64,000 nucleotides of DNA, from the NCBI GenBank assembly GCA_903938445.1, contig CAJADG010000039.1, positions 62,001 to 126,000 of the forward strand, in the 5' to 3' direction. The position numbers were made by a program, and so were the translations under genes. Shown in pieces: positions 51,047 through 63,787 of the stretch. The notes beneath the pieces are model-generated. The model worked only from the letters and a program-made list of their open reading frames with translations, did not search any database and had not been told where the DNA came from. Origin of the DNA: an uncultured Bacteroidota bacterium. Lineage in GTDB: Bacteria > Bacteroidota > Bacteroidia > Chitinophagales > Chitinophagaceae. Each line of letters starts with the position of its first letter. Position 1 is the first letter of the stretch.

Positions 51047-51098
51047 TATGTGCGTAAAATTTCAGTTGGTTAATTTTAAAAGTTCGAAATTTGTACAC

Positions 51099-51521
51099 AT
51101 GAAAAGCATATTAGTATTATGTACAGGCAATAGTTGCCGAAGTCAAATAGCCCATGGATATTTAGCAGATATGACAAAGGGTAAAGCCAATGTATATTCT
51201 GCTGGCGTAGAAACACATGGTGTAAATCCTAAAGCAATTGCCATTATGAAGGAAGATAGTATTGATATTTCAAATCATACCTCCAATAACATTACCGAAT
51301 ATTTTGGAGTAGACTTTGATTATGTTATAACCGTTTGCGACAATGCAAAAGAGCGATGCCCATATTTTCCTACAAAGGCATTAAAATTTCATTATAATTT
51401 TCCAGACCCTGCAAAAGCAACAGGTACCGAAGAGGAAATATTGAATGAGTTTAGAACTGTGAGAGCAATGGTTAAGCAATATTGTTCCGAATTTGTTTTG
51501 GAAAATAAGATCAATGAATAG
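51099..51521 (+). CDS. Arsenate reductase (thioredoxin-type, low-MW PTP fold)
   Basis: SILVLCTGNSCRSQIAHGYL and TVCDNAKERCPYFP. Start taken at MKSILVLC. Confidence 0.88.
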   Translation: MKSILVLCTGNSCRSQIAHGYLADMTKGKANVYSAGVETHGVNPKAIAIMKEDSIDISNHTSNNITEYFGVDFDYVITVCDNAKERCPYFPTKALKFHYNFPDPAKATGTEEEILNEFRTVRAMVKQYCSEFVLENKINE

Positions 51522-51522
51522 T

Positions 51523-51966
51523 TTACAACTGTTTTATGTAAGATTTTCTATCAATGACAAATTTTCTTCTTAAATAAAAGTTTTGTGTAGTTGTTGCAGT
51601 ATAGTTACACATAACTTCGATTTTAGGTATCCCCATTTTGATAGCTTTATTTTCGACATAGCTATACATATCCTCTGCTAAATTAAATTTTCTATATTTT
51701 GGAGAAATATAAAACTCCTTAATCTGAATGATTGGCTTTAATATTTGCAAAGACTCTTGTTTTTCACAAACTATACAACCAATTAAATTACCAATAGCAT
51801 TTTGTGCTACATATAATAAGCTAGACTGACTTTTTAATTTCTTCTTAAATAATTCAAGAAAATTATGTTTATCAAATTGTTGATTATATATTTGATGAAA
51901 TGCATCTAAAAAATAATCTACATCCATTTCTGTAGCATTTCGGATTTCCCATTTTTCAATTAACAT
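51523..51966 (-). CDS. GNAT acetyltransferase, PhnO-like (aminoalkylphosphonate N-acetyltransferase candidate)
   Basis: GNAT fold; register and residues resemble recalled E. coli PhnO (FDKHNFLELFKKKL, QIKEFYISPKYRKFNLAEDMYSYVENKAIKMG, NFYLRRKFV). Sits at the end of the phosphonate-like cluster. Confidence 0.65.
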   Translation of the reverse strand: MLIEKWEIRNATEMDVDYFLDAFHQIYNQQFDKHNFLELFKKKLKSQSSLLYVAQNAIGNLIGCIVCEKQESLQILKPIIQIKEFYISPKYRKFNLAEDMYSYVENKAIKMGIPKIEVMCNYTATTTQNFYLRRKFVIDRKSYIKQL

Positions 51967-51967
51967 A

Positions 51968-52648
51968 TTAATCCAATTTAAGTATACTAAATAACTCTTT
52001 TAAATTATCGATAATAAAATCAGGAGCTGCTTCTTCTAACTGTGTTTTAGTTTGCGCACCAGTGGTTACCCCAATGCTGTAAAGACATTTAGCATTCTTA
52101 CCCTCCTCAATATCAATTTTTGAATCTCCTATTTTAACTATTTTACCAGCATCTTCCATTGAAAATAAATTCATTGCAAACTGAATCATATCAGGTGCTG
52201 GTCTTGAATTTTTAACATCTGAAGCGGTTACTAATAAATCGTAATGATAAAATTGTCGCCATTGTATTTTATTTAAAATGAAATTGGCTGTGTTTTTATC
52301 ATACCCAGTATTTAATACCACTTTTATGTTTTGACTACGTAGTGTTAACAAAACATCCTCTGCATCAGCAATGGAAGTAATCGGAAATGCTTCATAGGCC
52401 GTTGCTAAACTTATTTTAAATAATTCAAAAATATCATTTGCTTTAATTAAATCATCAGCAGAGCCATAAACTTTAATGACATCCTTAATAGCATTTAGTT
52501 TTTCCTGACCAGCGCCTATTGCTAAAACCTGATTAAGGGTTACTTCAATACCATGTTCATTAATTGATTTTTGAAGTGTCTTATACACAATATTATCTTC
52601 ATCAATAGTAGTCCCTGCCATGTCAAATACAACCATTTCTACTTGCAT
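51968..52648 (-). CDS. Phosphonatase-like HAD hydrolase (PhnX-like, TIGR03351-type)
   Basis: VVFDMAGTTIDEDN nucleophile motif, GQEKLNAIKDV cap region, ASDVKNSRPAPDMIQFAM, VKIGDSKIDIEEGKNA. Confidence 0.8.
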   Translation of the reverse strand: MQVEMVVFDMAGTTIDEDNIVYKTLQKSINEHGIEVTLNQVLAIGAGQEKLNAIKDVIKVYGSADDLIKANDIFELFKISLATAYEAFPITSIADAEDVLLTLRSQNIKVVLNTGYDKNTANFILNKIQWRQFYHYDLLVTASDVKNSRPAPDMIQFAMNLFSMEDAGKIVKIGDSKIDIEEGKNAKCLYSIGVTTGAQTKTQLEEAAPDFIIDNLKELFSILKLD

Positions 52649-52653
52649 ATCTT

Positions 52654-53205
52654 TTAAATTAAAGCGTTTTGAATAGTTGAACGATAGCTTTCAATGGTAT
52701 CCACTTTTAATTCAGGTTCTTTTGCCATATCATCCCACTTTCTTAAAGCAACTGCCTCATTAAAGAACTCGTAATTTTCAAAAGCAGCTTTATCTTCTCC
52801 CGTCATGATACCCCCTTGTAAAATTAAACTTGATTTTGATGTAGGTGATAGCGTACTATAATAGCCAGGTTCCACTAAACATAAATATCTTTTTGCGGCA
52901 ACATGAAGCTTTACAGCCTCAACGACTTCCTTTTTAAAATAGGTAGTTAGGAATTGAGCTCCTAACTCCTCATGTACATCGTCAATACCTTGGTCTGTAG
53001 CATTGTCTGGTAAGTCATGCAATAAGTGTCCTATGTCATGTAATAATGCTGCAGTAACTAATTCATCCGTTGCATTTGATTGCTTTGCAAAATGAGCCGC
53101 CTGCAAACCATGCTCTAATTGAGTTACCGCTTCCCCTCCATATAACTCACCACCTTTTTCTGTAAATAAATTAATTACAAAATCAACAACTTCATTTTTT
53201 TCCAT
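52654..53205 (-). CDS. HD-domain protein of phosphonate degradation (PhnZ-like, TIGR03276-type)
   Basis: LYGGEAVTQLEHGLQAAHFAKQ, ALLHDIGHLLHD, LSPTSKSSLILQGGIMTGEDKAAFE resemble PhnZ-type HD oxygenases. Confidence 0.8.
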   Translation of the reverse strand: MEKNEVVDFVINLFTEKGGELYGGEAVTQLEHGLQAAHFAKQSNATDELVTAALLHDIGHLLHDLPDNATDQGIDDVHEELGAQFLTTYFKKEVVEAVKLHVAAKRYLCLVEPGYYSTLSPTSKSSLILQGGIMTGEDKAAFENYEFFNEAVALRKWDDMAKEPELKVDTIESYRSTIQNALI

Positions 53206-53225
53206 TTTTCTATATTTAAATAAGA

Positions 53226-54353
53226 CTAAATTTTCGCAACCGCTTCCTCAGCAAATCCAAATGAAAGTGTCATTCCATTACCCCCTATTCCATTAATAAT
53301 GTATACACCAGGCTCCACTTTCAAAAATAAATCAGTATCTCCATTGGTCATTTTAGGATATACACCATTCCAGCTTTGTTGTAAGGTCCAATCCTCAATA
53401 TGCATGAGTTTTCTTAGGTATTTTAATACTAAGTCATTTATAAATTGATTGTCAAAAGGTTCAAAATCCAAACCGTATTCATGTGAATCACCCACTGTAA
53501 GCTCCCCTTTGTCGTTTTGAGAAACCATTACATGAATCCCATATTTAAGGTACTCAGGAAGTTCGGATTCAATTTTTGCTTTTAAAATATCCAATGATTT
53601 TGAGGCCGTAAAACTCTTGTAATGTAATAGAGACAGGCCGCCACAAACCGAAGTGCCAATTCTATAATTTTTATCATTTGGGACAAAACGCATCATCTGC
53701 AATTTTGTTTTAGTAATAGGTAGTTCCTTAAATTTAGATGGATAAAGCGTTTCAAAATCAGCACCGGAACAAATACAAATGATATCTGCATTGTATTTGG
53801 TTTTAAATGACCAAACCGTATTAGTGGTTACATTGGTTACAGCGGTACCCCATACAATATCAATATTGTAATAATTTTTAAGATAGGTTGGTAAATGTTT
53901 TATGCCTTCTCTTGGGTCAATGATAGTTTCATCACTGCTATATAAGCCACTCTTTAAATTTTCACCGTTAATCCCATTAAATTTTTTCTGAATGCTTTCA
54001 GGAGAAAGTAAAGCAACTGGTCTTTGTGATTTTAAAAAATGTTCATATAATTCCTCCACCACATTTTGCTCTTCGTTATCATATGCTAAATGCAAACTAC
54101 CACATGGATCAAAAGGAATATTTGCATTTTTCAAATATTCTTTCCAAATTTCTCTTGATCTTATTGCACGGTCATACAAATGTCCATCTGGTTGACCAAT
54201 TGGCCATAACATTCCAAAATTTCTGATGGATGCGCCAAGCGATTGTTGGGATTTTTCTAGAATGGTTACTTTATAGCCTTTTAATGCCAATGCGCGCGCA
54301 GTTGCCATTCCTAAAATTCCAGCTCCAACAACAATTGCGGTTTTATCACTCAT
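53226..54353 (-). CDS. FAD-dependent oxidoreductase, TIGR03364 (phosphonate-cluster) type
   Basis: VVGAGILGMATARALALKGYKVTILEK, then GASIRNFGMLWPIGQPDG and GGNGMTLSFGFAEEAV. Confidence 0.82.
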   Translation of the reverse strand: MSDKTAIVVGAGILGMATARALALKGYKVTILEKSQQSLGASIRNFGMLWPIGQPDGHLYDRAIRSREIWKEYLKNANIPFDPCGSLHLAYDNEEQNVVEELYEHFLKSQRPVALLSPESIQKKFNGINGENLKSGLYSSDETIIDPREGIKHLPTYLKNYYNIDIVWGTAVTNVTTNTVWSFKTKYNADIICICSGADFETLYPSKFKELPITKTKLQMMRFVPNDKNYRIGTSVCGGLSLLHYKSFTASKSLDILKAKIESELPEYLKYGIHVMVSQNDKGELTVGDSHEYGLDFEPFDNQFINDLVLKYLRKLMHIEDWTLQQSWNGVYPKMTNGDTDLFLKVEPGVYIINGIGGNGMTLSFGFAEEAVAKI

Positions 54354-55623
54354 GAGATATATTTTTTATTTTATTAGTATAGTAAATTAAAGAGAAGATA
54401 GAAATAATTAATCCTATTATCGAAAACCAATAAACTCCTTTGGCGTAAAATTCAGCCCAGTTCAAATTTAAATGCATTGCACCTTTTATATAAATGACAA
54501 TAACGGAAGCCAAATATCCAAAAGAGTCCATTAGATATATTAGAAAGCCCACATTTCCTTTTAATCTAAAAGTTGCAATCATCCTATCAAACATAATTGA
54601 GTTAAAAGGAGTATAGCCAATGTATAAGCCCAGCCCCACTAATAACATCCAATTGAATCCATTCAAAAAATGTTTTTCAAATAATATGGACGCAATTAAA
54701 ACAACTATAAAACCTACAATAATCATGTATTGACTGATTAGAAAAACAAGCTTATTGTTTTTAATTAAAATCATACTCGCTATAATAGTTAATACCACAA
54801 TGGCAATGGGCAACTCGGTATTCGTAAAAACATTGGCACTATTTGAATAGCCTAAATTGGTCCAAATATCTGATGCGAAGTTGTCTCTTAAATCTCTAAA
54901 TAAAGTAAGTACCACATAAATAAATATAAAAGATAAAAGCCCAGGCATAAAGGTTTTAAAAAATAAGCCTCTCTCGCTTTTTAACATAGGCAATCTAGCA
55001 GATTTTAATGCTACTTCATATTCATTAGGTGGTGGAATTTTTTCAAGTAAATACACCAAAATAACAATAGGGATTACAAATAATAGACCTGTATAAAATG
55101 GAAGCCACATATCAGTTACATGAAAAGAAAGCTGTACCCATTTAGCTACTGATTTTGCAAAACCAGAGGAAACGATAATACTTGCTCCCATTGCAGCCCC
55201 AATAAAATCAGTACCTCTTCGGCCTTCGGCAAATGAAAAAATAATGCCCCAAGTCATGCCTAATGGAAAACCATTTATAAATAGGCAAATTATATTTAAA
55301 GGAGTGGGTAAAATTGGAAAAAGCAATAACGGTATTAGGGAAATAATAACTAATATAAAAATGAGTTTACTCCTGCCAACAGATTTTAATTCGGAAATAT
55401 ATTTAACCCCAAAAAATTTACTTGCAGTATAACCTAGGACCTGCGCTATTACGAGCAAATTTTTAAAGTCAATTCCAAAAAAGCTGGGCATATTGTTATA
55501 AAGACCCACTGTGAAAGGCTTTCGAAAAGCAAAAATGCAGGAGTAGGTTAAAAAACAGATTAAAGAAATATAAACAGCATGTAAATACTGATTATTTTTA
55601 AATTTTGCTATGAATGAGGTCAT
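54346..55623 (-). CDS. DUF5690-family MFS transporter
   Basis: About 12 TM segments; TYSCIFAFRKPFTVGLY and INGFPLGMTWGIIFSFAEGRRGTDFIGAAMGASIIVSSGFAKSVAKW. Confidence 0.8.
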   Translation of the reverse strand: MTSFIAKFKNNQYLHAVYISLICFLTYSCIFAFRKPFTVGLYNNMPSFFGIDFKNLLVIAQVLGYTASKFFGVKYISELKSVGRSKLIFILVIISLIPLLLFPILPTPLNIICLFINGFPLGMTWGIIFSFAEGRRGTDFIGAAMGASIIVSSGFAKSVAKWVQLSFHVTDMWLPFYTGLLFVIPIVILVYLLEKIPPPNEYEVALKSARLPMLKSERGLFFKTFMPGLLSFIFIYVVLTLFRDLRDNFASDIWTNLGYSNSANVFTNTELPIAIVVLTIIASMILIKNNKLVFLISQYMIIVGFIVVLIASILFEKHFLNGFNWMLLVGLGLYIGYTPFNSIMFDRMIATFRLKGNVGFLIYLMDSFGYLASVIVIYIKGAMHLNLNWAEFYAKGVYWFSIIGLIISIFSLIYYTNKIKNISHE

Positions 55624-56714
55624 TTTAAAATAAAATTCAAGGGTTGCCCAACAGGATGTTTAGCATTTTTTTCATTAAAGTCCTGATCCATTAATGTAGC
55701 AATGGTAGCAGCAATTTGTTTTTGGTATAATTGCATTGGTTTTTTTATTTCACCTGCATTTGCAATTTTTGGACCCATTGCCGCAAACCAAATTTGAGAG
55801 GACTCTTTTACCTCTTGTCCGTGATTTTTCCAGGTTGACTTACCTGTACCTCCTCTACCATGATCACAAGTAATAATCAATGTAGTATTGTTCTTATATT
55901 GAGGAATAGATTGAATTGTATTCCATAAGTTTGAAATCATGGCATCCTCTGCATGTAAGGACTTTAAATATTGATCATACATACCTGAATGAGCAAAATC
56001 ATCGGTCTCATCAAAAGAGATATACAATAAGTTTGGATGATACGCTTTTAAATATTCTTTCGCTGTAAAATAAGTTAGTAAATCAGGTCTTACATTGATT
56101 GGCTTTGCTGTTACAAATTGCATTTCATTTAATAATGACAAAGCAGGGTCTTTAAAATGGATGGTGTCCACATCCGCATTCACGTAGATACCGCTTCTCT
56201 TTTTATTTAAGATATATGGAAACACATCCCAGGTTGTAAAAGCAGCCACTTTGCCTTTATACTTTGGCACTGAATTAATATACTCAAGTACATTAATATT
56301 TTTGTTTAAAATTTTATCATTAGAGTTTACAGAATCGTCAGGGAAACCAGTGAAAATTTCGTTGTAGCCAGGATATGAAAATTGATACTTATTGGCAACA
56401 TTAAAATTGGCATCATAATTTCTATTGCCCATTAAAACACCTTGCTTTGCTACTGTATTCCATATGAAAGGAGTAATTAAACTTCTTCTCGTATTTACAT
56501 CTGTTGCCCAAAAATTAGTTTTGATATAATCAATATCGCCATCATAGGTTTTATCATTTAAAATAACACTATCCGCTCCATTAAAAATCTCCTGCCATCT
56601 TAAACCATCAAGCGTAACCACAATAACATTAGGATTGGATTCCACTTTTTTAATTGGGCTAAAAAACAAGGAAACTAAGCTTAAAAGCCATAGTATTAAT
56701 AAATCTATCATCAC
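55620..56714 (-). CDS. Alkaline-phosphatase-superfamily hydrolase (phosphodiesterase / phosphonoacetate-hydrolase-like), membrane-anchored or secreted
   Basis: N-terminal TM; metal and nucleophile motifs VVTLDGLRWQ, SYPGYNEIFTG, SFDETDDFAHSG, TCDHGRG, NHGQ. Confidence 0.82.
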   Translation of the reverse strand: MMIDLLILWLLSLVSLFFSPIKKVESNPNVIVVTLDGLRWQEIFNGADSVILNDKTYDGDIDYIKTNFWATDVNTRRSLITPFIWNTVAKQGVLMGNRNYDANFNVANKYQFSYPGYNEIFTGFPDDSVNSNDKILNKNINVLEYINSVPKYKGKVAAFTTWDVFPYILNKKRSGIYVNADVDTIHFKDPALSLLNEMQFVTAKPINVRPDLLTYFTAKEYLKAYHPNLLYISFDETDDFAHSGMYDQYLKSLHAEDAMISNLWNTIQSIPQYKNNTTLIITCDHGRGGTGKSTWKNHGQEVKESSQIWFAAMGPKIANAGEIKKPMQLYQKQIAATIATLMDQDFNEKNAKHPVGQPLNFILK

Positions 56715-57951: not shown

Positions 57952-58773
57952 TTAATTAGTATAAATCGCTTTTAATTGTTTAATTTTTTTAGCACTTAAG
58001 CCCATCACCTTGTCAAGATAGTTATCAATAGTGCCATATTGTGCTTTAATGGTGGCAAAAGTTGCTTGGATATACTCTTTTTTTGCACCCATCATACTAG
58101 TGGCTACTTTTTCATCCATTCCAAAATATTTAGTCATTTGAGCAATTTGTTTTGCATTCTCATTACGACGATAATAATTGGTTGCTTCATAATCATTAAA
58201 AATTGTTTCCTCATCAACGCCTAAAGCATATAATATCAATGCAGCAGCAATACCTGTTCTATCCTTGCCTGCAGTACAATGGAATAAAATAGGGCTTGTA
58301 TTTTTATTCGCCAATAAACTATCAAATAAAGGAGCATATCTATCTTTAAAAGGCGTTAGCACCGTATAAAAACTAAGTAAAAAAGAATCCGACTTCATAT
58401 ACCTTCCCATATTTTTCATATAGTTGCTGTCTCCTACATTTTCACTACCTGCAGGCAAAGAAATACGCGTAGTACCTGCTGGAATTTTATCAGGTGCTGT
58501 CTTCACTTCATAAGGACCTCTAAAATCAAAATCATATTTAATATTTAAAGAAGCAATTTTAGCGATATCAGCATCCGTTAAAGTATTTAAAGCAGCTGAA
58601 CGATATAATAATCCAGTCTTTACTTTTTTACCGTCCTTATTTTTATATCCACCCAAATCTCTAAAATTTACTGCGCCTTGCAATTTAACTTCTCTTAAAC
58701 TACTATCAGCAACCTGTGCTTGTAATTGAAAAATAGAAATTAAAAAAAACGCACAAATAATTAATTGTTTCAT
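57952..58773 (-). CDS. Secreted tyrosine-protein phosphatase-like enzyme (Y_phosphatase3 type)
   Basis: Signal peptide MKQLIICAFFLISIFQLQAQ, NFRDLGGYKNKDGKKVKTGLLYRSAAL, CX5R motif LFHCTAGKDRTGIAAALIL. Confidence 0.88.
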   Translation of the reverse strand: MKQLIICAFFLISIFQLQAQVADSSLREVKLQGAVNFRDLGGYKNKDGKKVKTGLLYRSAALNTLTDADIAKIASLNIKYDFDFRGPYEVKTAPDKIPAGTTRISLPAGSENVGDSNYMKNMGRYMKSDSFLLSFYTVLTPFKDRYAPLFDSLLANKNTSPILFHCTAGKDRTGIAAALILYALGVDEETIFNDYEATNYYRRNENAKQIAQMTKYFGMDEKVATSMMGAKKEYIQATFATIKAQYGTIDNYLDKVMGLSAKKIKQLKAIYTN

Positions 58774-58853: not shown

Positions 58854-60473
58854 CTATTTAATTAACCACATTTTAGCAGTTAAGTCATCAGTACCACCAT
58901 ATTGAGATGATAATGCTGCCTTGTTGTTCGTTGGATTGTAGTTAGTTTCATCCACTGGATACTGCCATCTTAAAGGAATCTTGAAACTTGGAGTACCAAT
59001 TCCAGAACCACCTTCTTTGAATGCAGGAATACCCGTTCTTCTCCATTGATAGTATGACTCAAAGCCAGAGTTCAAGAAGAAAGAAACATACTTTTGGCTT
59101 AAAATTTGAGTTAAACCAGTAGCGTTATCGCCAGCATAAGCAATATTTGTTAAGAAAGTATTTACATCATAAGTAGCAGTTCCTAAACTTGGTTTTGTAC
59201 CATCATTGTTACCAATTGTGATAGTTCCACCTTGTTTAATACCATACCAATCTAATGAAGCTTGTACACCTTTAGTATACCATGCTGATGCAGATTGAGT
59301 TGTAATCCAACCTCTATTCGCAGCTTCAGCAATATTGAAACACATTTCACTGTAACCTAATAAGATATAAGGCTCAGACAATGTACCACCAATATTAGTT
59401 GAAGTCATGTATCTATTGTAGTTAAGCGCTGCAAGTGGAGTACTATTAGTAAAAGTAAACTTCATTGAAGAAATTGCAGAGTCTTGCTCTTGACCAACGT
59501 ATGTAGTAAAACTACCCACTGGGTTATTAGCATCAATACTTAATACACCTGGAGATAATAAAGCTAAAACACGAGGATCTTTATTTGGAACAGTAGCTCC
59601 AATCCAAGTCTTAGAAATATTTAAACAAGTATTGTATTGAGCATACCCATAACGGTGAGGAGGGTATTGGTTATAAGCTGAGTTATAAATAAACTTAACG
59701 TTATCACTGTTACTTGTCATAATAGGATATTGTGTAGGATTATTTACAATCGTAGCAAATTGTGACTTGATATTTAAATCTGCATTGTCATCAGCACGCT
59801 TGCTTAATGAAATCAACACTCTTAATTTATAAGTATTGATTGCTTTTTGCCATTGTGCGTATGTTAATCCAAATACATCTCCACCAGCATCTACTTTCGT
59901 ATTTGCATTAGAAGCTGAAATTAAAGCAGCAATTTGTAAGTTAGCAGAATCTAATAATGCTAATGATTGCTTGTACACATCATGCTGAGTATCATACTTA
60001 GGAGTTAAGTTATTGATATCATTAGATTGTGACATTGGGATATCACCTACTCTTTGTGTTAACCAAATATATGAGTATGCTTTAAAGAATTTACTCAAAG
60101 CAAAGTATACATTGGTTTTATTTTTATACTGATTAAACGCTTGCTCTTCCATTTTAACACAATACTTGATATTATCGTAAGTTGTGTTTGTAGTAGACCA
60201 GTTATAAGCATTTGAACCAAAATAATAGGTGTAGTTTGATACTACGTTTTGGTTATATTTCCATACGTTAGATACGATTGGATCTTCTTCCTTCATTAAA
60301 TTCGCAGTAATGTGATTTAATATTAAAGAGGAAGGAATAGTTGAGCTTTCAGCTGCAACGTTCGGATTGGATAACAAGTCCCCTTTCTGGCAACCTGTGA
60401 TACCAAAACTTACAGCTACTAAGCCTAAGATGATATTACTAAATTTGATTTTCATATAATTACTTTTAGACAT
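58854..60473 (-). CDS. SusD/RagB family nutrient-binding outer membrane lipoprotein
   Basis: Lipobox GITGC; SusD-like helical architecture (KFFKAYSYIWLTQRVGDIPMSQ, SEPYILLGYSEMCFNIAEAANRGW, YQWRRTGIP). Start probably MKIKFSNIIL at 60455. Confidence 0.9.
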   Translation of the reverse strand: MSKSNYMKIKFSNIILGLVAVSFGITGCQKGDLLSNPNVAAESSTIPSSLILNHITANLMKEEDPIVSNVWKYNQNVVSNYTYYFGSNAYNWSTTNTTYDNIKYCVKMEEQAFNQYKNKTNVYFALSKFFKAYSYIWLTQRVGDIPMSQSNDINNLTPKYDTQHDVYKQSLALLDSANLQIAALISASNANTKVDAGGDVFGLTYAQWQKAINTYKLRVLISLSKRADDNADLNIKSQFATIVNNPTQYPIMTSNSDNVKFIYNSAYNQYPPHRYGYAQYNTCLNISKTWIGATVPNKDPRVLALLSPGVLSIDANNPVGSFTTYVGQEQDSAISSMKFTFTNSTPLAALNYNRYMTSTNIGGTLSEPYILLGYSEMCFNIAEAANRGWITTQSASAWYTKGVQASLDWYGIKQGGTITIGNNDGTKPSLGTATYDVNTFLTNIAYAGDNATGLTQILSQKYVSFFLNSGFESYYQWRRTGIPAFKEGGSGIGTPSFKIPLRWQYPVDETNYNPTNNKAALSSQYGGTDDLTAKMWLIK

Positions 60474-60481
60474 TTTAAATT

Positions 60482-63400
60482 TTAGAAGTTAAGATTAATG
60501 TTAAATCCGAATCTTCTTGCAGTTGCTGATTGTAAAATAGCACCTTTTTGTAAAGATCTATCTGAGTCATTAAATCCTGCAGCGAACTGATCTAAGTCTT
60601 GGTCTTTTCTATCAGCGAAGTATAATAAGTTTCTACCCACTAATGAGATAGTTGCACCTTTAATATACTTTAACTTAGCCAATACGTTTGCTGGTAAAGA
60701 ATAAGCGATATTTACTTCACGTAATTTTACAAAAGAACGGTTTGTCATCCAGTATTCGTCCACACCACCGTATCCAGATGCACCAGCGATAGTTTGAACC
60801 TTAGCAGCTACATCATTTTGAGCAAATGTTAAAGCAGATAAGTTAGTGATTACACCATTAGCATAAGTTGGAGTACCAGAAACAATTTTAACACCAGGGC
60901 CTACATACTTAGCAGTTTGTGCAACTGTACCTAAAGCTGTAGTTTGCCACTCAGCTAAACGTGCCGCACCAATTGCTCCTTGAGTAGACTCAATTGAAGT
61001 ACCACCATTCATACCATCATGATAAATTTGGTCGTAGATATTTCCACCAATTCTACCATCAAATTGGAAACCAAAGCTTACATTTTTGAAAGTGAATTTG
61101 TTGCTGATACCAAAAGTATAATCAGGGTTTGCAAATCCTAAGAATTTGTTGTTACCAATATCTGAAGGAGCTCTTAATGGAGTACCACCAGACCATACGA
61201 TATTGTTTGAACCATCACGTACAAATGCAGAACCATAAATCGCATCTAAACGATCACCTACTTTGTATACGTGGTTGTTTAAAGATAAACCAGTTTCATT
61301 ACCATAAATAGCATCCAATGTTTCTTGGTAAGTTGCATATGTTGCATTGATATCCCAGTTAAAGTTAGAAGTTTTGATTGGCGTACCAGATAATGTAATT
61401 TCAAAACCTGCTTTCTTTGAAGTGATACCATTTACGTTTTGTGCAGCATACCCTGTAGAAGAAGCTACTGGTAATGCATAAATTTGAGGACCGTTAAAGC
61501 TTGTAAAGTAAGTGAAATCAAATCCTAATCTGTTTTTAGCAAATTTTAAATCCACACCACCTTCGTATGAAGTACGGTCAAATGGTTTTAATGAGCTATT
61601 TGCAATTGTATTTGAATAACCTACCGAAGGAGTACCATTATAATAAGATTGGAACGCATATGCATTTTGGTTAGCATAAGAAGGTCCATCATAAGAACTG
61701 TATAAATCAGAACCATAACCTAATAAACCACCATTGGTACTTGTACCAGTGATTGCAGTAAAGGCAGAAGGAACTGTTGATTGAGTCAATCCACCTTTTA
61801 CGTCAGCATATGAAGCACGTACTTTCGCAAAAGAAATAAATGAAGGTAAGTTCAAGTAATCTTTCAAAGCAGAGCTCAATGAAACTGAAGGATAGTAGAA
61901 AGTATTGTTTCCGTCAGGTAAAGTAGATAATTGATCCACACGACCTGTATGAGATAAAGTTGCATACTTACTTAAAGATAAATCGATAGAGTAGTAAGCG
62001 CTATACACTTGCATTCTTGAATTCCAAGTATAAGCTAAAGCAGCGTCTTTCGTATTTGACAATACATATAAGTTTGGAACCGCTAATGCTTTTGTAGTTC
62101 CCCAGAATGAGTTGTAAGCGAAAGATCTTTCAGAAACACCCGCTAAAGCAGAGATACCAATTTGACCTACTTTCTTTTCGTAGTTAGCAGTTAAGTCAGT
62201 ATTGTTCTCTGTCAAACGACGGCTATCTTCATGATAGTCACCATACCATCCAAAGTAGAACCAAGGAGTGTATGTGTTTAAGTTAGCACCAGCAGGAACT
62301 TGCTCAGTTCTTAATTGGCTCCAAGTAGAGAATTGAGAACGTAAGTTTAAGTTTAAGTCATTGTTTACTTTGTAAGAAGCTTTCACATAACCATTCACAT
62401 CTGTTTTGTCATGAGAACGTAACCATTTTTTAGCCATAAACCAAGCACTGTTTTCACGACCATACTCTTGTGCATATGGAATTAAGTTTTGTACCCCTTG
62501 TGGTCCTTTGTAAATATCTTTTAAATCATTGATATCATAATCAGAAGATCCATAAACTTTAAACATGTAAATGTAAGAGTTAGGACCATAGTTAACGTCA
62601 GGGATATTTGGAGAATATTGCTTATTCATGTTTAAGCTTGCTTCCAATCTTAATTTCTTAGAGATATTGTAACCACCATTTACCGCTAAAGTATAAGAAT
62701 TTAACTTCGTATTTGGAGACATACCTTTTTGATCCATATTAGAAATTGAAATTCTAACATCTGATTTTTCAGTAGCACCTGCTAAAGAGATATTATTAGT
62801 GTTAATAATACCTGTTTCCATAAAGTTTTCAAAGTTGTTCTTACCTTTTGCAGTCCATGGAGTTGCTGTTCTGATACCAGTTACGATATCATAAGGGCTA
62901 TTATATTGCTTAACCATTTGGCCTTCAAAACGAGGACCCCATTCTGGTAAACGTTGTTTGTTATCATACAATACGTCACCATAGCTATAACCATAGTTAG
63001 TACCACGACCATATTCAGCTTGTGCTTCAGGAACAGCGATAAAACCATTCTCAAACATAGTGCTTGAGTTAAAATCTACCTGCCATCCTTTTTTATCTTT
63101 AGTACCTCTTTTAGTAGTAATAACGATCGCACCATTTAAACCTCTAAAACCATATAATGCAGAAGCGTTCGTACCTTTTAAAACAGTGTAAGTTTCAATA
63201 TCATCTGGAGCAATGTTCCAAGTATCTGTATTTACTGGAACTCCGTCAACCACAAATAATAAATCTTTAGAACCACGTAAAACTAATTCTGGACGACCTA
63301 ACATTTCGGCGTTTGCACCTACTGTTAAACCAGCAATTTTACCAGCTAAAGAGTTAATTGGATTCGCATCTCTTGCTTTGATTAATTCACTACCTTTTAA

Positions 63401-63787
63401 TTCTTGTACTGAATATCCAATTTTCTTAGTTTCTCTCTTAATACCATAAGCAGTAACAACTACATCTGTTAATGCTTTCGTATCTTCTTGTAATGCTAAT
63501 GAAAAACTAGATTCATTACGTAAAGTATAGGTTTGAGATAAGAAACCTAATGAAGTAACTTCTACTGATTTATCACCAGCTGAAATGGTGATTTTAAAAT
63601 TACCTTCATTGTCAGTTTGAACTGTCTTTTTTGAAGGTAAAGCTCTCACTACTGCACCAGCAATACCAATGCCTGTAGTAGTTTGAATTTTTCCTGTCAC
63701 AGTTCTAGCGTCTTGAGCGTAGACATTCGAAATAAAGAAAGCTAATAGCGTGACGCCTATTAAAACTCTCTTGAATAATGCTTGCAT
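60482..63787 (-). CDS. SusC/RagA family TonB-linked outer membrane protein
   Basis: Carboxypeptidase-D-like N-domain (VTGKIQTTTGIGIAGAVVRALPSKKTVQTDNEGNFKI), plug (VLRGSKDLLFVVDGVPVNTDTWNIAPDDIETYTVLKGTNASALYG), C-terminal beta-signal ending in F. Confidence 0.96.
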   Translation of the reverse strand: MQALFKRVLIGVTLLAFFISNVYAQDARTVTGKIQTTTGIGIAGAVVRALPSKKTVQTDNEGNFKITISAGDKSVEVTSLGFLSQTYTLRNESSFSLALQEDTKALTDVVVTAYGIKRETKKIGYSVQELKGSELIKARDANPINSLAGKIAGLTVGANAEMLGRPELVLRGSKDLLFVVDGVPVNTDTWNIAPDDIETYTVLKGTNASALYGFRGLNGAIVITTKRGTKDKKGWQVDFNSSTMFENGFIAVPEAQAEYGRGTNYGYSYGDVLYDNKQRLPEWGPRFEGQMVKQYNSPYDIVTGIRTATPWTAKGKNNFENFMETGIINTNNISLAGATEKSDVRISISNMDQKGMSPNTKLNSYTLAVNGGYNISKKLRLEASLNMNKQYSPNIPDVNYGPNSYIYMFKVYGSSDYDINDLKDIYKGPQGVQNLIPYAQEYGRENSAWFMAKKWLRSHDKTDVNGYVKASYKVNNDLNLNLRSQFSTWSQLRTEQVPAGANLNTYTPWFYFGWYGDYHEDSRRLTENNTDLTANYEKKVGQIGISALAGVSERSFAYNSFWGTTKALAVPNLYVLSNTKDAALAYTWNSRMQVYSAYYSIDLSLSKYATLSHTGRVDQLSTLPDGNNTFYYPSVSLSSALKDYLNLPSFISFAKVRASYADVKGGLTQSTVPSAFTAITGTSTNGGLLGYGSDLYSSYDGPSYANQNAYAFQSYYNGTPSVGYSNTIANSSLKPFDRTSYEGGVDLKFAKNRLGFDFTYFTSFNGPQIYALPVASSTGYAAQNVNGITSKKAGFEITLSGTPIKTSNFNWDINATYATYQETLDAIYGNETGLSLNNHVYKVGDRLDAIYGSAFVRDGSNNIVWSGGTPLRAPSDIGNNKFLGFANPDYTFGISNKFTFKNVSFGFQFDGRIGGNIYDQIYHDGMNGGTSIESTQGAIGAARLAEWQTTALGTVAQTAKYVGPGVKIVSGTPTYANGVITNLSALTFAQNDVAAKVQTIAGASGYGGVDEYWMTNRSFVKLREVNIAYSLPANVLAKLKYIKGATISLVGRNLLYFADRKDQDLDQFAAGFNDSDRSLQKGAILQSATARRFGFNINLNF

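Follow-up and report, generated by a model that had tools for sequence, protein, structure and literature searches.

A conserved six-gene operon for probable aminophosphonate use in a Chitinophagaceae-related bacterium, with a DUF5690 protein as candidate permease

A 64,000-nucleotide stretch of contig CAJADG010000039.1 (positions 62,001 to 126,000; assembly GCA_903938445.1), hereafter the window, was analyzed to characterize a compact operon of six minus-strand open reading frames at 51523–56714. Genes in the operon code for a GNAT acetyltransferase (51523–51966), a PhnX-like HAD hydrolase (51968–52648), a PhnZ/TmpB-type HD-domain di-iron oxygenase (52654–53205), a FAD-dependent aminophosphonate oxidase of the PbfD/HpnW family (53226–54353), a DUF5690 transporter with an MFS fold and a putative role as inner-membrane permease (54346–55623), and an AP-superfamily enzyme that is probably secreted or membrane-anchored, given its N-terminal hydrophobic helix (55620–56714). 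Neighboring genes are 1, 5, or 20 nt apart or overlap by 8 or 4 nt, and location, strand, and spacing are exactly as described in an earlier note on this DNA. The nearest relative, a Chitinophagaceae metagenome-assembled genome (MAG; locus L082), has the identical six genes in identical order, with protein identities of 73%–88%. Nonsynonymous divergence between the two (dN 0.09–0.19) is low against a saturated synonymous divergence (dS about 2–2.6), and all six genes are under purifying selection. Shared gene order, protein identity, and low dN thus indicate a conserved unit of real genes and not a chance arrangement. A promoter and terminator scan gave a signal no better than that of shuffled sequences. 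The appearance of the operon fits the phosphonate-utilization operon proposed in the earlier note, and we consider it likely to be an aminophosphonate uptake and phosphate-release unit. This reading is based on gene content, protein families, catalytic residues, and conserved neighborhood.

The FAD protein has a score of 405 bits against TIGR03364 (cut-off 285.1) in a profile search. PbfD enzymes of this family oxidize N-methyl-2-aminoethylphosphonate (N-methyl-AEP), and also AEP, to phosphonoacetaldehyde and an amine, so that PhnW is not needed; N-alkylated aminophosphonates, suggested earlier as possible substrates, are therefore a published substrate class (PMC10590968). By homology, the window enzyme would oxidize AEP or N-methyl-AEP to phosphonoacetaldehyde. 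Clusters with phnX and without phnW are typical of the non-PbfD1 members (PMC10590968). The HAD protein scores 220.2 bits against TIGR03351 (cut-off 218.9) and 110.2 bits against TIGR01422, the model for PhnX sensu stricto (cut-off 220). Its D9-x-A-G-T motif (D9, A11, G12, T13), K50, and R149 are invariant in 19 sequences including Bacillus cereus PhnX. K50 aligns with the Schiff-base lysine of that enzyme (K53), and R149 is an Arg in place of Lys. From this alignment, we infer that the HAD protein is a phosphonoacetaldehyde hydrolase that keeps the phosphonatase Schiff-base lysine.

For the transporter gene next to the FAD gene, the hidden Markov model (HMM) check that had been proposed gave a score of 491 bits against PF18943 (DUF5690). 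The predicted structure has an MFS fold (predicted local distance difference test score, pLDDT, 90.5), and MFS-type transporters, among them SLC37A4/G6PT of the organophosphate antiporter family, make up its top PDB fold matches. R34, K35, K69, and R243 are invariant in 33 DUF5690 proteins. In a survey of 399 Bacteroidota genomes, DUF5690 was found over the cut-off in 42. Of the 33 genomes that encode PbfD, 30 have DUF5690 (Fisher 4e-32), and so do 30 of the 31 that encode PhnX or a PhnX-like protein (Fisher 2.5e-34), although these Fisher values ignore shared ancestry. Proximity follows the same pattern, with a phosphonate enzyme no more than 9 kb from DUF5690 in 30 of 43 inspected sample loci. 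These neighbors belong to several AEP routes: PbfD with PhnX-like, PhnW with PhnX (L049, L050, and L061; true PhnX, 327.9 bits), and PhnW with PhnA and PhnY dehydrogenase (L023 and L039). A tree of 119 DUF5690 proteins places phosphonate-linked members on deep branches in several places, and the window protein falls in a 13-member clade in which all are phosphonate-linked. By analogy with AepP, an MFS 2-AEP permease that is related to GlpT (27.75% identity; Murphy et al. 2021, PMC8316502), the DUF5690 protein would be an aminophosphonate permease. No paper mentioning DUF5690 or PF18943 was found in a literature search. This candidate permease is the new element of the operon, from an uncharacterized family seen repeatedly beside phosphonate enzymes across the Bacteroidota.

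Besides the shared ancestry behind the Fisher values, several observations weigh against this assignment. The best fold matches are spread across MFS families, and a phmmer search of the PDB with DUF5690 found no solved MFS structure. An hhalign profile match to GlpT (sequence checked against 1pw4) is non-significant (P = 0.063), and it is within this alignment that R34-K35 and K69 line up with RK and SKF of GlpT. The 119-protein tree also contains a nested clade of 44 proteins without phosphonate neighbors, so the DUF5690 substrate may be wider or different. Another reading is that DUF5690 exports a product (phosphate, an amine, or something derived from acetaldehyde) or carries a different organophosphate, and that general phosphorus metabolism explains where the gene lies. 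It draws on the same clade, on three Chitinophaga loci that encode SusC-SusD-DUF5690 with no phosphonate enzymes nearby (L098, L102, and L111), and on second copies of DUF5690 in genomes that have a linked copy (G387, G367, and G304). We regard this as unlikely because DUF5690 is tightly associated, at the level of both genome and position, with three different AEP routes, and because the operon encodes no other importer gene. Linked proteins on deep branches and a nested unlinked clade suggest an early origin of the phosphonate linkage and its loss in a single group, tentatively, since the tree is midpoint-rooted. The 44-member clade covers Pedobacter, Sediminibacterium, Rufibacter, and others (e.g., L096, L101, L108, L115, L129, and L139). 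Of the three DUF5690 genes in genome G304 (L038, L039, and L040), one belongs to a PhnW/PhnY/PhnA cluster, another accompanies FAD and HD genes, and the third lacks phosphonate neighbors.

The HD protein scores 212.4 bits against TIGR03276, which is slightly under the cut-off (214.6) and counts against the assignment; relatives in equivalent loci score 194–216. The nearest solved structures are TmpB (6npa) and PhnZ (4mlm), both mixed-valent di-iron oxygenases. H32, H56, D57, H78, H101, and D158, together with Y22 and E25 of the substrate loop, are invariant with the sequences of these two structures. From established knowledge of PhnZ, we take the six positions to be the di-iron ligands. The FAD, HAD, and HD families named in the earlier note were thus correctly recognized. 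A window operon without a PhnY*/TmpA partner differs from the PhnZ/TmpB systems. No PhyH gene for a PhnY*/TmpA-type 2-oxoglutarate hydroxylase is present in the operon, and the two PhyH genes in the assembly are not neighbors of it. The better of these two was considered as a hidden PhnY* and rejected, being nearest to phytanoyl-CoA dioxygenases and amino-acid/ectoine hydroxylases.

Two arrangements of the HD and FAD enzymes were compared. A serial route, close to the earlier suggestion that the FAD enzyme makes the substrate of the HD enzyme, would start for instance from an N-alkylated hydroxy-aminophosphonate and leave the HAD protein as an accessory. Seven genomes have FAD and HD genes with no HAD gene nearby (L073, L091, L094, L095, L121, L130, and L150), and searches of one of these assemblies, a MAG (L095), yielded no PhnX-like HAD and no PhnA. 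An Achromobacter study also leaves room for HpnW feeding PhnHD (PMC11203657). The other six genomes, however, encode a PhnX-like HAD (four) or PhnA (two) elsewhere, and 11 of the 43 sampled DUF5690 loci pair FAD and HAD genes with no HD gene. The substrates of PhnZ-type enzymes are alpha-hydroxyphosphonates (PMC10574752), and the phosphonoacetaldehyde produced by characterized PbfD carries no alpha-hydroxyl group. The PbfD product therefore suits the HAD protein and not a PhnZ-type oxygenase, which together with the common FAD-HAD loci favors parallel branches and makes the serial route improbable. For the HD enzyme, a parallel branch that would act on alpha-hydroxy-phosphonates is a better reading than a step after the FAD enzyme. 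Very improbable is an ordinary HAD/HD/FAD/transporter set for another organophosphate whose phosphonate names are inherited from profiles, since, even though the models TIGR03351, TIGR03276, and TIGR03364 are each classed as "hypothetical equivalog," the families match biochemically tested phosphonate systems, the HAD catalytic lysine and HD di-iron ligands are intact, and neighbors in related loci score over the cut-offs for PhnW, PhnA, PhnX, and phosphonoacetaldehyde dehydrogenase.

The two outer genes of the operon have less specific assignments. The first product is a GNAT (PF00583, 33.9 bits), as noted earlier, and its proposed likeness to PhnO is weak (NF007530, 40.3 bits; cut-off 142), a point against a PhnO assignment. 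Both L082 and L083 keep it as the 3′-terminal gene of the operon, and it is possibly an accessory that acetylates aminophosphonates. The AP-superfamily call was borne out by PF01663 (40.8 bits; cut-off 23) and by a predicted structure with the AP fold (pLDDT 89.5). S113, the presumed nucleophile, and the metal-ligand positions D36, D238, H242, D284, H285, and H298 are invariant in 14 sequences. The enzyme is probably a phosphodiesterase or phosphomonoesterase. Fold matches are scattered over sulfatases, LTA synthases, and NPPs, pointing to no one substrate. PhnA was considered and rejected because there was no match to TIGR02335.

Three further minus-strand genes lie upstream of the operon. 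They code for a Y_phosphatase3 protein that is probably secreted (57952–58773; PF13350, 231 bits), a SusD-like outer-membrane lipoprotein (58854–60473; PF12771, 183 bits), and its partner, a SusC-like TonB-dependent transporter with a Plug domain (60482–63787). The window SusC scores 1014 bits against an HMM of phosphonate-locus SusC proteins, and in a SusD tree the window SusD is sister to that of L083, inside the phosphonate-locus clade. In L083, genes for SusC, SusD, Y_phosphatase3, DUF5690, FAD, HD, HAD, and GNAT form an uninterrupted series on one strand, with a SusC counterpart of 1101 amino acids in the same relative position and the Y_phosphatase3 counterpart directly between SusD and DUF5690. 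L085 has the series SusC-SusD-DUF5690-FAD-HD-HAD. SusC of this family was found near 34 of 61 phosphonate-linked DUF5690 loci vs 4 of 62 unlinked loci (P = 1.3e-9), an association that is partly circular because the HMMs were built from DUF5690 neighborhoods. Other evidence also counts against including the window pair: it forms a separate transcription unit upstream, with ypdA on the opposite strand between it and the operon; L082 has no SusCD beside its operon; and a SusCD pair on contig C35 of the same assembly is closer to the phosphonate-locus profile and adjoins a GDPD-like gene. Membership of the window pair is argued from the contiguous L083 locus, and by the same comparison the window Y_phosphatase3 likely belongs to the ancestral locus.

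The window SusD was rejected as the closest SusD-like_2 protein of the assembly to the phosphonate-locus profile, as the C35 paralog scores 701 vs 447. This paralog belongs to a SusC-SusD pair of the phosphonate-locus family beside a GDPD-like glycerophosphodiesterase gene (L165:7772-13586; C35). Given that neighbor, the SusCD family may handle phosphoesters or phosphodiester head groups as well. In Maribacter forsetii, the SusC/D pair with the highest expression on laminarin (P177_RS04595/04600) reportedly adjoins genes for an alkaline phosphatase, a phosphonatase-like hydrolase, and a FAD oxidoreductase (PMC11345257), and this locus looks like the kind described here.

Other phosphonate genes were searched for in the rest of the assembly. 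The operon does not contain phnGHIJKLM, and a window without C-P lyase, PhnCDE, PhnW, or PhnY, as stated in the earlier note, fits the operon and its surroundings. Genome-wide, PhnW had no match over the cut-off in a profile search and no convincing PhnY was found, and what did turn up was a 16.8-kb contig (C11) with profile-confirmed PhnI and PhnJ in a C-P lyase/PhnCDE gene order. The genes next to these on C11 (K, L, M, D, C, and E) encode a pair of ABC ATPases, an amidohydrolase, a binding protein of the PhnD type with a neighboring copy, and ABC transporter components. The cluster includes two binding-protein and two permease genes (G000; L042, L043, and L014), and two neighboring PF01663 phosphodiesterase-like genes are found in the same assembly. 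Composition of C11 is close to, and slightly below, the genome spread (correlations of 0.77–0.89 vs 0.83–0.92), and PhnJ was not found in nine related assemblies searched. C11 may therefore reflect either recent gain or mis-binning. The suggestion that the operon is a self-contained route is weakened: the assembly contains C-P lyase and PhnCDE, a binning error being possible, and the unit in relatives includes SusC and SusD, so what is likely an outer-membrane step was missed.

Two other kinds of genes were observed around these loci. In L082, the operon adjoins arsenic genes (ArsC-like, ACR3-like, ArsM-like, and ArsR-like, named by eye from sequence; L082:14116-16878), and an ArsC-like gene (51048–51521) lies beside the operon in the window. 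A helix-turn-helix (HTH)-cupin regulator of ~190 amino acids recurs in the phosphonate loci of relatives (e.g., L027 and L032), with none detected in the window, and is a candidate phosphonate-responsive regulator.

The proposed mechanism takes the PbfD, PhnX, and PhnZ/TmpB reactions from homologs and transport from AepP as an analog. The SusC and SusD proteins encoded nearby would carry an organophosphonate or a conjugate across the outer membrane, and the periplasmic AP-superfamily enzyme, plus the secreted phosphatase in the window locus, would trim esters. The DUF5690 MFS permease would import the free aminophosphonate in the manner of AepP. The cytoplasmic steps would begin with the PbfD-type FAD oxidase, which would replace PhnW and use O2 to convert AEP or N-methyl-AEP to phosphonoacetaldehyde. 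The PhnX-like HAD would hydrolyze this to acetaldehyde and phosphate, with Lys50 forming the Schiff base. On a parallel branch, the PhnZ-type HD enzyme would cleave an alpha-hydroxy-aminophosphonate, such as (R)-1-hydroxy-AEP, to glycine and phosphate; with this substrate supplied externally, PhnY* would not be needed. Aminophosphonates that are toxic or in excess may be acetylated by GNAT.

The enzyme core of the operon is of an established kind, as seen from PbfD chemistry and the Achromobacter trio, and the combination of parts is a new variation on it. PbfD-phnX clusters (Zangelmi et al. 2023, PMC10590968) also combine a TIGR03364 FAD oxidase that replaces PhnW with a phosphonatase-family HAD, but the window HAD belongs to TIGR03351 and not TIGR01422, and the window adds the HD oxygenase, AP enzyme, DUF5690, and nearby SusCD. 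The string "Bacteroid-" was not found in the main text of that paper. Glyphosate-induced phosphonatase operons of Achromobacter (PhnX-HpnW-PhnHD) have the same trio of TIGR03364, phosphonatase, and TIGR03276 without PhnW or PhnY*; they are proteobacterial, and the available part of the report leaves the role of PhnHD open and mentions no DUF5690, AP enzyme, or SusCD (PMC11203657). AepP resembles DUF5690 in being an MFS transporter encoded by one gene and linked to genes of AEP catabolism (PMC8316502), although AepP is recognizably related to GlpT. Flavobacterium Pus loci (PusCD) similarly join SusCD to phosphoesterases for phosphorus scavenging, but are described for phosphate esters, whereas the window SusCD goes with phosphonate enzymes (PMC8115612).

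More tentatively, with somewhat less than even confidence, these loci may represent a Bacteroidota "phosphonate utilization locus" built like a polysaccharide utilization locus. In such a locus, SusCD would capture lipids or glycans that carry phosphonates, secreted phospho(di)esterases would release the head group, DUF5690 would be a previously unnamed family of aminophosphonate permeases, and the PhnW-free set of PbfD, PhnX-like, and HD enzymes would free phosphate from AEP, N-methyl-AEP, and hydroxy-AEP together. The testable advances are the proposed DUF5690 permease and the SusCD-linked locus. PF18943, present in about one-tenth of the sampled Bacteroidota genomes, gains a concrete and testable candidate function as an aminophosphonate permease. 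The loci suggest phosphonate uptake through SusCD in the Bacteroidota, a route not described in the literature found. PhnW-free aminophosphonate use in this phylum becomes recognizable, including in loci filed under other functions, such as laminarin use in Maribacter.

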